NCBI GenBank assembly: GCA_031281585.1 | Contig: JAITFE010000107.1 | Span: forward strand, 1-34,374 | Source: Bifidobacteriaceae bacterium | Lineage (GTDB): Bacteria; Actinomycetota; Actinomycetes; Actinomycetales; WQXJ01 | Length of the DNA stretch: 34,374 nt | Reading direction: 5' to 3' | Shown here: piece after piece, positions 17,946 to 29,072 of the stretch | How the letters are laid out: every line of letters starts with the position of its first letter | Numbering within the stretch: position 1 is the first letter of the stretch | The notes under the pieces: generated by a model | The model's input: the letters and a program-made list of their open reading frames with translations, nothing else | Database searches by the model: none | Told to the model about the DNA's origin: nothing | Made by a program: the position numbers and the translations under genes

Positions 17946-19006
17946 GCCGTATCGCCTCCTTGTCGTTTGAGCCAGTTCACAAGATTGCGGGCGGGGTCCA
18001 GTTGGTAGCGCTCCAACGAAGCGGTGGACAGGAACGCCATGTGGGGCGTGGCGATGGTGCGCGGATGGAACAGGAGCGGGTCGCCGGCCAAGGGCGGTTC
18101 GCAGTCCGCCACGTCGGCGCAATAGGCGGCCAGCCGGCCGGATTCGAGCGCCGCCAAGACCGCCTGACTGTCCACCAACCGCCCGCGCGAGACGTTGACC
18201 AGCAAGGTCCCGTCCTTCATGGCCGCCAACGCGGCCGCGTCGATCAGGTGCTCAGTCTCCCCAGTCAGCGGCAAATGCAGCGAAATGATGTCGGAACACG
18301 CAAGCACCTCAGGCAGCCCGGCCAACCGGACGGCTGGGCCGATCCAACCGGTTGGCTGGGCGCGACGGGCCGGGCCGGCATCGCGCGCGGGGTTGGTGGC
18401 GCGGGCGGGCGAGGCGGCGTCGGCGGGATTCGGGGCGGCGCCCGCCTTGGCGGGTTCGGCAGCCGGGTCGGCCGCCAACACCGCGCCGACCATTGGGCCC
18501 AGGTAGTCCGCCACTTTTCGGCCGATCCGGCCGAAGCCGACCAGGCCGAGCGTCATTTGGCTGAGGGCGGGCGGCACCTGGCCGACCTGTTCCGTCCAGC
18601 CGCCTTGGCGAACGACCTCGCGGCCGTGGTCCAGGCGGCGGATCGCGGACAAGACCAAAGCGACGGTGTGGGCGGCCACCTCCTCGGTGGAAGCGTCCGC
18701 CATCGGCAGGACCACCACCCCGCGCGCCTCGGCGGCGGCCGCGTCCACCATGTCCGCGCCTGTGGACGTGGTGGCCAAGACCCTCAAGTTGGGCAGTTGG
18801 TCCATGACGGCTGGCCCGATTTGGGCGTAGCCGACAATCCCGCCCACAGCGGCGCGGGCGGCGGCCGGCACTTGGGTGTCGCGGTCCAGGCTCAAGCACA
18901 GACTCGAGAAGCCCTGGTCGGCCAGGTAGGCGCGAGCGGGTTCCAAGTCGATGTCGGTCTGGTCCGTGAAGACCACCAGCCGGCCGGGTTGGGCGCGCCC
19001 GCTCAT
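17942..19006 (-). CDS. D-2-hydroxyacid dehydrogenase (NAD(P)-dependent)
   Basis: A 354-residue member of the D-isomer 2-hydroxyacid dehydrogenase family. It has Rossmann motif GFGRIG (157-162) and the catalytic triad Arg274 (NVSRGRLVD), Glu303 (ADCEPPL) and His322 (TPHMAF). The family reduces 2-oxo acids such as glyoxylate, hydroxypyruvate or phenylpyruvate-type compounds; the substrate is unknown. Between about residues 182 and 226, just after the second Rossmann strand that normally carries the cofactor-selecting residue, there is an Ala/Pro/Asn/Arg-rich insertion absent from usual homologues. Cofactor preference therefore cannot be judged. Start and stop codons both overlap neighbours as ATGA. 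Its place between the importer ATPase and the carbamoylase suggests reduction of a 2-oxo acid made in the same pathway. Confidence 0.88.
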
Positions 19007-25977: not shown

Positions 25978-26511
25978 TCACGGACCCGACAGGTTGTATG
26001 TCGCCTTGGCGCGGTTGGCGGCGCGCACCATCAGGCCAATCCCGACTGGCGGCAGCACAATTCCCGCCGTCAGCCCGGCGGACACAGCCACCCCTGTGCC
26101 CACGTTGGCCAAGTCGAAGTACGTCATGGCGACTCCGGCCAGGACGGCCAGCAGCGCCAGGTTCAGCCACACCATCATCCGTTCGCCCGCGCGGTACACG
26201 GCCTGCGCATTGACGGGGGTGATCTCAAACGGGTAGTTGAACCACTGCGGACGGCGGGCGAGCCAGCCGAGCCCCTCGACCAGCACCACAAGCACCGCCA
26301 GAATTATTACGAGCACCCACTTGGGGCCCCAGCCGTCCGCCTCGCCGGCAAGGTTGTAGTGGGTCGGCATCTCCGCCGGCGCGGACGGGTACCGCGCCAG
26401 GACCAGGCCCAGAATCAACGGCGCCCCGACCAGCCCGACCACCCACAAAATCCGCGTCACGGGACCAGTCTCAAAGTTCCGCGCGGGCCTGTTCTTCGGC
26501 AACTTCGGCAT
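25978..26511 (-). CDS. DUF1648 integral membrane protein
   Basis: A 177-residue membrane protein with four predicted transmembrane helices (about 20-40, 64-84, 112-132, 137-162). Between the first two is the DUF1648 signature: PAEMPTHYNLAGEADGWGPK, with conserved Pro, His-Tyr-Asn, Gly and Trp-Gly. The domain is found alone or in SdpI-like proteins; its biochemical role is unknown, and SdpI itself is an immunity protein against a peptide toxin. ATG 26511 has GGGGGAGG just upstream. A TAGAAT -10-like box on the same strand (26559-26554) is a possible promoter, though no -35 is evident. The gene lies downstream of the esterase and its palindrome. Confidence 0.83.
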   Translation of the reverse strand: MPKLPKNRPARNFETGPVTRILWVVGLVGAPLILGLVLARYPSAPAEMPTHYNLAGEADGWGPKWVLVIILAVLVVLVEGLGWLARRPQWFNYPFEITPVNAQAVYRAGERMMVWLNLALLAVLAGVAMTYFDLANVGTGVAVSAGLTAGIVLPPVGIGLMVRAANRAKATYNLSGP

Positions 26512-26586: not shown

Positions 26587-26640
26587 GGAAACGGGGACGG
26601 TACCTATTTCGCTGGCGAAATAGGTACCGTCCCCGTTTCC
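26587..26640. repeat. Perfect REP-like palindrome, 26-bp arms with 2-nt centre
   Basis: Positions 26587-26612 are the exact reverse complement of 26615-26640, with only TG (26613-26614) between. The arm runs GGAAACGGGGACGG then TACCTATTTCGC. No mismatch occurs in 26 pairs. It resembles the REP palindromes mobilised by REP-associated tyrosine transposases, but no such transposase is in the window. It overlaps the 3' end of the esterase gene and supplies its last residues and TAG stop (26606-26604). In RNA it would form a very stable hairpin and could also end transcription. Confidence 0.97.
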
Positions 26641-27644
26641 GGCAGGTGGCGGCGGAAGAACTCCGCCGCTTGGAGCAGGTCTTCGCTCGCGCCGCCCTCG
26701 TGGCCCGCGAAAGGCCAGACCTGGATGTCTTTGGGGCCCGCGTAGGCGTTGTAGGCGCCGAACACCGTCGAGGCGGGCGTGAGATCATCCGCCAAGCCCG
26801 TGGCGAAGTGGGCCGGGGCCCGGCACCGGCGGGCGAAGTTGACCCCGTCCACATAAGACAAGGTGCGCCGGACCGAGGCCTCGTCGGCCGGACGCACAGC
26901 CAGGTAGGTGGCGATTTCCTGGTACGCCCCCTGGTCGGTGACGTCCACGCCGCGCATCACGTCCACCATGAACGGACTCAGCACCACCGCCGCGCGGACC
27001 AGGCCGGGCACCAGGGCCGCCGCGGCGAGGGCCGCGCCGCCGCCCTGCGAACGCCCGAACACGCCGATGCGGGACGGGTCGACCAGTTCCAACTCGGCGG
27101 CGGCGTCCACCGCCCGCGCCGCGTCGGTGAACAGACGCGCGTAATAGTAGGTCTCGGGCGCCATCACGCCTTTGGTCACAAACCCCGGCGTCATGGGGCC
27201 GGAGCCGTGCGGGTCCGGGGTGTCGCCCGGCGCCCACGTGGCGCCCTGGCCCCGCGTGTCCATCCGGAACTGGGCAAACCCGAGCGCGGGCCACACCAGG
27301 TCGTCAAGCGGCCAGCTTCGCCCGCCGCCGTAACCCCCGAACTGGACAACGCAGGCGGGCGGGCGGACGGCATCGGGCACCCCCGAACCCGAAACCAGAC
27401 CCGAACCCGAACCCGAAACAGGCAACCGCAGCCAGGCCTTCACCGGCTCGCCGCTGAAACCTGAAAACGTGACGTCAAAAACCTCCACGCCGTGCAAGTC
27501 CAACTCGACCCGTTCCGGGACGGGCCTGCCCCCGTCCGCCCGCGACTCGTGCAGGGCGACCTCCCAAAACACGTCGAAATCGTCCGGCTCGCGCGTTTGG
27601 GACTGGTAGGACCGCAACTCCTCCAAGGGCAGATCACGCAGCAT
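26604..27644 (-). CDS. Acetylxylan esterase/cephalosporin-C deacetylase (CE7) family
   Basis: A 346-residue alpha/beta hydrolase of carbohydrate esterase family 7. It shows RGQG oxyanion region (MDTRGQG), nucleophile Ser in GRSQGGG, Asp in GLADDLTPAST and His in AGHEGG. The family removes acetyl groups from acetylated xylo-oligosaccharides or small esters in the cytoplasm. The native C-terminus should be near EFFRRHL; the following residues PETGTVPISPAK and the stop are encoded by the REP-like palindrome. A short SGSGSGLVSGSG insert (about residues 77-88) is made by hexamer repeats near 27380-27420. ATG 27644 lies 9 bp after the cysS stop, so the gene is probably co-transcribed with cysS although unrelated in function. 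Confidence 0.88.
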   Translation of the reverse strand: MLRDLPLEELRSYQSQTREPDDFDVFWEVALHESRADGGRPVPERVELDLHGVEVFDVTFSGFSGEPVKAWLRLPVSGSGSGLVSGSGVPDAVRPPACVVQFGGYGGGRSWPLDDLVWPALGFAQFRMDTRGQGATWAPGDTPDPHGSGPMTPGFVTKGVMAPETYYYARLFTDAARAVDAAAELELVDPSRIGVFGRSQGGGAALAAAALVPGLVRAAVVLSPFMVDVMRGVDVTDQGAYQEIATYLAVRPADEASVRRTLSYVDGVNFARRCRAPAHFATGLADDLTPASTVFGAYNAYAGPKDIQVWPFAGHEGGASEDLLQAAEFFRRHLPETGTVPISPAK

Positions 27645-27653
27645 CAGGCCAGG

Positions 27654-29072
27654 TTAGCCGCCTAAGGACAACTCCCACCGGGGGCCCGCCGGGGAGTCCT
27701 CCACTTGGATGCCTGCGGCCGCCAGGCGGTCCCGGATGGCGTCCGCGACCGCGAAATCGCGGGCGGCGCGGGCGGCGGCGCGGGCCTCCAACTGCCCCTC
27801 GACCAAGGCGGCCAGGGCCGATTCGGCCTTCGCGGACGCGGCGGATTCCGTCCAAGGCGCCGCCAAAGGATCCATGCCCAGCGCCGCCAGCATGGCCCTG
27901 ACCTCAAGCAACGCCGCCAACGCCTCGTCGTCCTGGTAATCCGACAAGGCGGTGTTGCCCCGCCGGACGGCATCGTGAACCTGGGCCAAGGCGACCGTGG
28001 TCCCCAAGTCGTCGTCCATCGCGGCCACAAAGGCGCCGGGCAAGGGCACGTCCACGACCGGCTGGCCGGACCCGACCCGTTCGCCGGCCCGCCGGATGAA
28101 GCCGATGATCCGCTCATAGGCGGCGGACGCCTCCGCCAAAGTCGAATCGGAAAACTCCAAAGTGGACCGGTAATGCGCCGCCGTCAAGACGTAGCGGATC
28201 ACAATCGGATCAGCCTGTTTCAGCAGTTCAGAGGCCAACAGGGTGTTGCCGAGCGACTTCGACATCTTGGTCCCGGCCTGGGTGATGAAGGCGTTGTGGA
28301 CCCAGTAGCGGGCAAAGCCGTAGCCGGCGGCGCGGGACTGCGCCTGCTCGTTCTCATGATGCGGGAACCGCAGATCGATCCCGCCGCCGTGGATGTCGAA
28401 CGTCTCGCCCAGGTAGCGCAGCGACATGGTGGAGCACTCTAGGTGCCAACCCGGCCGGCCCCGGCCCCACGGCGTGTCCCAGGACGCGTCGAGCGGCTCG
28501 GTCGGCTTGACAGCCTTCCACAATGCGAAATCATGCGGGTCGCGTTTGTCGTCCGCCTCCGGTTCGTCCTCGGCCGAAACGAGGTCCTCCAGCCGCTGAT
28601 GGGTCAGCGACCCGTAATCCGGGTAGGAGCGCACGTCGAAGTAGACGTTGCCGGGACGGCCCGTGTAGGCGTGGCCGCGCGCGATCAGCCGGTCGATGAA
28701 CTCGATCATGTCCGGCACCACCCCGGTGGCCCGCGGTTCGTAGGTGGGCGGCCGCACGCCCAACGCGTCGTAGGCGGCCGTGAACGCCCGCTCCCAGTGA
28801 CCGGCCCACGCCCACCATGGCTCCCCCGCCTGGGCGGCCTTGTTCAAGATCTTGTCGTCAATGTCGGTGACGTTGCGGATGAACCGCACCTTGTTGCCGG
28901 CCCGCTCCAGCCAGCGCCGCAAGATGTCGAAGACGACGGCCGGCCGCAAATGCCCAATGTGGGGGGCGTCCTGGACCGTCGCCCCGCACTGGTAGATGCC
29001 CACATAGCCGGGGGTGAGTGGTTCAAACGGCCGGACGGTGCCGGTGGCGGAATCGTGCAGCGAAAGGCTCAT
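27654..29072 (-). CDS. cysS: Cysteine--tRNA ligase
   Basis: A 472-residue class I aminoacyl-tRNA synthetase. Zinc-binding Cys29 (YQCGATVQD), PHIGH motif (37-41), ECSTM and HHENE zinc/substrate motifs, and KMSKS (about 268-272) are all intact. The anticodon-binding C-terminal domain has a normal length. It charges tRNA-Cys. ATG 29072 follows the ispF stop by 10 bp, so carD-ispF-cysS reads as one operon. In many actinobacteria the next gene is rlmB; here it is the CE7 esterase. Confidence 0.96.

Follow-up and report, generated by a model that had tools for sequence, protein, structure and literature searches.

A species-restricted family of GGGGAC-tagged hairpin repeats in an actinobacterial genome, one copy of which forms the end of an esterase gene, and its probable RAYT transposase

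In this study, we have analysed a window of 34,374 nucleotides (the whole stretch of DNA considered here) from the genome of a bacterium related to termite-gut Bifidobacteriaceae, in which the 3' end of an esterase gene consists of a perfect palindrome. Based on our results, this palindrome very probably belongs to a lineage-specific family of REP doublets (REPIN-like), best placed with the TIR type marked by the tag GGGGAC and most likely mobilised by the RAYT transposase encoded on contig C137 of the same genome, and the copy in the window fused 11 codons and a TAG stop to the esterase.

A palindrome at the end of an esterase gene

The arms of the palindrome (26587–26612 and 26615–26640) are 26 nt each and 100% complementary around a 2-nt centre, and the repeat search of the window returned no other inverted repeat of such quality. 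The features of the region are as follows:

26587–26640, no strand assigned: REPIN-like palindrome whose 26-nt arms, GGAAACGGGGACGGTACCTATTTCGC, are inverted around a 2-nt centre (repeat search, genome arm search, shuffles and RNA fold)
26604–27644, minus strand: AXE1-family (PF05448) esterase gene, 346 aa, Pfam E 1e-81, with its 3' end in the palindrome
26607–26639, minus strand: 11 element-encoded codons, ETGTVPISPAK, missing from homologues
26604–26606, minus strand: TAG stop codon from the second arm (AAATAGGTACC), within the palindrome
25978–26511, minus strand: next gene on the same strand, judged from its sequence to encode a multi-pass membrane protein; the new stop lies about 93 nt upstream of it
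27654–29072, minus strand: gene identified from its sequence as cysS (cysteinyl-tRNA synthetase), next to the esterase on its upstream side and used as synteny anchor

The core of the palindrome was matched by chance in 0 of 100 dinucleotide-preserving shuffles and, as RNA of the esterase strand, the palindrome folds at -55.1 kcal/mol (z = -10.3), a value equalled by no shuffle. Since the 11 codons and the TAG lie wholly within it, the initial annotation was right in describing a perfect palindrome with 26-bp arms and a 2-nt centre that encodes the final residues of the esterase and its stop. Elsewhere in the window, imperfect overlapping palindromes (18316–18373, 74–78% complementary) lie in a D-2-hydroxyacid-dehydrogenase-like gene and are unrelated to the GGGGAC-tagged family.

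Homologues of the esterase are encoded by nine congeneric genomes and by many more distant ones. The closest, from the congener G004, is 81–83% identical, with 91% identity for the upstream cysS, which adjoins the esterase in G005 and G009 too. The esterase of the window ends in ...AEFFRRHLP-ETGTVPISPAK*, and that of G004 in ...AEFFRQHLS*, with its stop at most one codon from the position of the palindrome edge; this congener presents the empty site. Most of the other homologues end only a few residues from the same point, the exception being G005 with an unrelated tail of about 15 residues, and the Pfam domain ends at residue 321, well ahead of the element-encoded tail. Because the closest homologue stops where the palindrome begins, the element did lengthen the esterase, and the two earlier proposals that the native protein ends just before the palindrome and that the element lengthens it both hold in the alignment. 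To judge from these sequences, the hairpin entered at, or at most one codon from, the former stop, so that 11 codons and a TAG became fused to the gene. The exact ancestral base of that stop is conjectural, because the homologue is 81–83% identical and the downstream gene differs in G004: the membrane-protein gene at 25978–26511 has no counterpart beside the esterase in the stretch of G004 examined.

The repeat family and its transposases

With up to 2 mismatches allowed, the arm GGGGACGGTACCTATTT has 188 occurrences in the genome (3.98 Mb), against 0 for the reversed control, and complete inverted pairs of it number 51. After retrieval of the sites we counted 97 distinct arm clusters, 53 of which are '+-' doublets. 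The exact core GGGGACGGTACCNNTTT is present in 161 arms of this genome and absent (0 copies) from 58 related genomes, nine congeners included; of the ten species searched in this genus, the family is thus confined to one. A chance or single-copy palindrome is ruled out by the 188 arm places, the shuffles and the 161 core copies against 0 in relatives. The REP-like element proposed in the initial annotation is thereby confirmed, and the outcome that it had named as contrary, a single copy with C-terminal residues shared by homologues, fails in both halves: the arm is multi-copy and the homologues end earlier.

The arms begin with GGAAA[T/C]GGGGAC and, within a copy, they vary together. The two arms agreed at the inner variable dinucleotide in 50 of 52 hairpins (25 TA, 15 TG, 9 TT and 1 GG) and at the outer base in 50 of 52, and mismatches between arms amounted to 51 where 146 were expected, an agreement reached in 0 of 5000 permutations. 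This joint variation is consistent with copying, or retention, of the element in hairpin form. At some loci (L083:1323–1562, L088:1995–2163, L089:1867–2068 and C44:11512–11745) the arms stand in direct tandem, about 30–145 nt apart and in some cases within long ORFs, which suggests local duplication of an arm with its flank. Two further loci, L041:782–873 (contig C25) and L063:1995–2086 (contig C112), share a nearly identical element cluster and flanks with the hairpin loop in opposite orientation (CTCT versus AGAG); this similarity reflects either a recent duplication with inversion of the hairpin or an effect of assembly.

A Y1 (RAYT) transposase, for which the initial annotation had advised a search, is present. 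The genome holds two Y1_Tnp genes, on contigs C137 and C142, and both match the NCBIfam model REP_Tyr_transpos, yet below its cut-off (69 bits against 80 for the C137 protein). As read from the alignment, the C137 RAYT (L032:1465–2067) has the motifs HUH (NHAHF), YIHLNP and WSS. It is flanked by copies of the element, with a full palindrome upstream and its own stop (...ADGRK-TAG) taken from an arm. A search of solved structures with the RAYT by sequence gave 0 matches.

G005, a genome matching the MAG 'Bifidobacteriaceae bacterium isolate Pcl387_bin33' (JAITJZ), has the same glgB-RAYT-ybbN locus (gene names assigned by sequence). Its RAYT (L204:1501–2130) is 62% identical to that of C137 and is flanked by arms with the core GGGGACGGTCCC in place of GGGGACGGTACC, a one-base variant that is found in G005 only around this locus, in about five copies; the C-terminus of the protein is likewise arm-encoded (...SEMGTVPFSSS...). 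The RAYTs of G004, of G001 and of contig C142 each have a GGGGAC variant of their own, with the motif GGGGACAG in G004 and GGGGACAC in G001 and C142, both of which fit the TIRtron motif GGGGWSAS. With its own variant for each transposase, RAYT and repeat co-vary across the genus. The variants of the G004 and C142 enzymes form repeat families of modest size, with 16 places for G004 and about 21 for C142 (L031/L209, GGGGACGGTCCTTTC); several of the latter are in same-orientation groups. An HTH-like C-terminal tail (a sub-threshold Pfam match) is carried by the RAYTs of C142, G004 and G002. In the alignment, those of C137 and G005 have no such tail and both end in their own arm; given this absence, the activity of the C137 RAYT is putative and not assured.

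TnpAREP and the IS200/IS605 enzymes are HUH transposases that act on single-stranded hairpin DNA. By analogy (background in PMC6006769), the likeliest mechanism would begin with the two inverted arms of about 25 nt folding each copy into a hairpin in single-stranded DNA, the foot of which would most likely be recognised by the arm-bracketed HUH tyrosine transposase of C137. As modelled for IS200/IS605 and for the TnpAREP of E. coli, this enzyme would most likely cut the single-stranded hairpin and insert it elsewhere, and the copies that survive would be those in places of low harm, right after stops, between convergent genes and in loops.

Where the copies lie

Gene positions around the element loci were taken from a simple Markov gene finder. 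Gaps between convergent genes make up 32 of the 74 element-bearing gaps, against 14 of the 175 without an element. For 45 of 65 elements a stop is no more than 15 nt away (random placement in the same gaps would give 44%), and 15 overlap one. In co-directional gaps the median distance of the element from the upstream stop is about 10 nt, despite a median spacer of about 160 nt, and 0 of 20,000 randomisations came as close. The initial annotation had proposed precise targeting at a stop codon: the strong preference of the family for gene 3' ends agrees with this, but the precision does not, because distances to the stop range from overlap to tens of bases and some copies are intragenic, which makes it a preference and not a fixed target.

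Predicted coding sequence is overlapped in frame at 21 of the 97 sites (about a fifth), and 10 of the 97 are internal to genes. The clearest intragenic case is a XerD-like recombinase (L052:1563–2513, minus strand, contig C56) with a complete copy in frame in a loop. The insert of 25 residues, mostly PEMGTVPVSGKPETGTVPIS, separates positions that almost adjoin each other in E. coli XerD (1A0P), and the loop in congeners is shorter and of unrelated sequence. The other in-frame copies are:

L077:2001–2151: linker of an NAD synthetase, three arms
L036:2033–2090, L061:1995–2052, L069:1995–2052 and L091:1804–1882: linker of an M50 site-2 protease, and C-termini of an ABC ATPase, an Fe-S/CCG protein (Fe-S oxidoreductase) and a PucR regulator

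A further copy stands in frame at the N-terminus of a Maf protein, and such N-terminal cases may be mis-called starts. We place no weight on the single-arm intragenic matches at L235, L234 and L220, which may be mutated or due to chance. Of 33 intragenic arms, 31 are translated in one of the two frames that lack the TAG, which give GTVP[IV]S or NGDGTYF.

These positions can be viewed in more than one way. The transposase could actively target stop codons, or a single-stranded region close to termination, instead of inserting broadly with selection acting afterwards. The closeness of co-directional elements to the upstream stop would suggest this, as would the arm-derived stop of the RAYT itself in the source genome (G000). 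We nevertheless consider active targeting somewhat unlikely, as neither a fixed distance nor a fixed target tetranucleotide is found beside the element, the sites internal to genes do not conform to it, selection against insertions in promoters and coding sequence would favour 3' ends too, and the same pattern has been published for REPs of P. entomophila and S. wittichii (PMC3733652). As to the tetranucleotide, CTGA or CTAG at the stop was dropped as a candidate target, since distances vary and TGAC and TGAG are the most frequent stop contexts near elements and elsewhere alike. A more elaborate scenario, to which we give a small probability, is that in this bacterial lineage the transposase lost its DNA-binding tail because its stop came to be supplied by its own arm, and that the relaxed targeting that followed allowed a species-specific burst of a coding-compatible hairpin, capping or entering many genes in the two tolerated frames.

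It is very unlikely that the palindrome is an ordinary intrinsic, perhaps bidirectional, terminator overlapping the gene end, with the genomic copies being a shared cassette kept for termination. The stability of the hairpin, the enrichment at 3' ends and between convergent genes, and the flanks (A-rich on the left and T-rich on the right, from AAAT/ATTT up to AAAAAC/GTTTTT) would be compatible with such a function. However, across the family the 6 nt that follow the stem core typically contain just 3–4 T, the family is missing from congeners, and the in-frame copies in the XerD, M50 protease and NAD synthetase genes stand where termination would be harmful. At the esterase, the terminator scan of the site returned no terminator-like site with a T-tract, and translation covers the 5' arm and the loop, which means that a coupled ribosome would keep the hairpin from forming behind it. 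The hairpin should therefore not act as an intrinsic terminator while translation keeps pace, and the suggestion that the element provides a terminator is not borne out, there being no U-tract. As the main explanation of the family, an ordinary terminator is ruled out by the negative scan, the intragenic copies and the absence from relatives. The likeliest effect on esterase expression, as we predict it, is a modest influence on translation termination or on the stability of the mRNA 3' end.

We consider it still more improbable that the element-encoded C-terminus is functionally selected and the palindrome a spreading peptide-coding module (GTVPIS or NGDGTYF), as proposed for the Rickettsia palindromic elements: all but two of the 33 intragenic arms use the GTVP or GDGT frame and the proteins concerned are intact, with the inserts in loops, linkers and termini, but the target proteins are unrelated, the esterase domain ends before the tail, and the frame bias follows from tolerance alone, because these frames have soluble residues and no TAG stop.

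A mobile hairpin repeat in which most copies persist in harmless 3' or loop positions therefore remains our preferred reading. Such an element can rewrite the ends and loops of proteins without breaking genes. When the source genome is annotated, a C-terminus of the type ...GTVPIS.. or ..NGDGTYF is to be read as mobile-element sequence and not as part of the enzyme. The genus also offers a clean test system, with one syntenic transposase locus, about five copies (all at that locus) in one relative versus about 100 sites here, and arms that are one base apart.

Comparison with known repeat systems

Our results extend RAYT-type repeats to an actinobacterial lineage, whereas in the earlier survey the Actinobacteridae sample contained subclass 1.1 only, and the enzymes seen there were all of the ordinary IS200 type (PMC6006769). 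The closest resemblance in architecture is to the TIRtrons/TIRYTs, RAYT-like genes with flanking GGGGWSAS repeats (Di Nocera et al., 2013; PMC3733652), most of whose transposases are TnpAREP of subclass 2.1 with an HTH tail (PMC6006769). As in these, a RAYT-like HUH/Y1 gene is flanked by inverted repeats with a GGGG[AT][CG]-type motif (PMC3733652, PMC6006769), repeats may overlap the end of the transposase gene ('3'ov'), families are organised as dimers, and an HTH-like tail is found in the C142 and G004 relatives of the C137 RAYT. The differences are the actinobacterial host, the core GGGGACGG with 7 of the 8 bases of GGGGWSAS, the absence of the HTH tail from the C137 RAYT, and the number of sites, about 97, a sizeable proportion of which are intragenic and in frame.

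With the REPs and REPINs of E. coli, Pseudomonas and Stenotrophomonas (PMC3116915, PMC2817692), the family has in common that short inverted doublets form hairpins, that their copies number in the tens to hundreds, that the RAYT gene stands between two inverted copies, and that RAYT and repeat co-evolve. Unlike those, it has nearly perfect long inverted arms and no GTAG/GTGG head; a classical GTAG REP is ruled out, as there is no GT[AG]G at the foot of the hairpin. The extent of gene overlap also differs: in P. fluorescens SBW25, just 14 of about 1,067 REP 16-mer occurrences overlap genes (PMC3116915, PMC2817692), against the 21 of 97 sites described above.

The intragenic habit itself has precedents. 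GTAG REPs often hand TAG stops to neighbouring ORFs, convergent ORFs have REPs less than 20 bp from their 3' ends, and in several species REPs occur in frame within ORFs (PMC3733652). Insertion in frame in loops and termini is thus shared with the intragenic GTAG and CGTC REPs and with Rickettsia RPE-4/6, as are the TAG given to a flanking ORF and the closeness to convergent 3' ends (PMC3733652). The tag and the phylum are different here and, unlike the CGTC and RPE elements, the repeat has a linked cognate transposase and its copies have no terminal CGTC tag. According to a study summarised in PMC12306157, E. coli REPs within 15 nt of a stop codon down-regulate translation. They resemble the esterase copy in having a hairpin at or right behind the stop; at the esterase, however, the first arm is part of the translated sequence and the second contains the stop.

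In conclusion, the family displays the features of REPIN/RAYT systems, namely multi-copy dispersal, a flanked RAYT, co-variation of RAYT and repeat, and inverted covarying doublets. The kind of repeat is known; what is new is a GGGGAC-tagged family of it in the actinobacteria.
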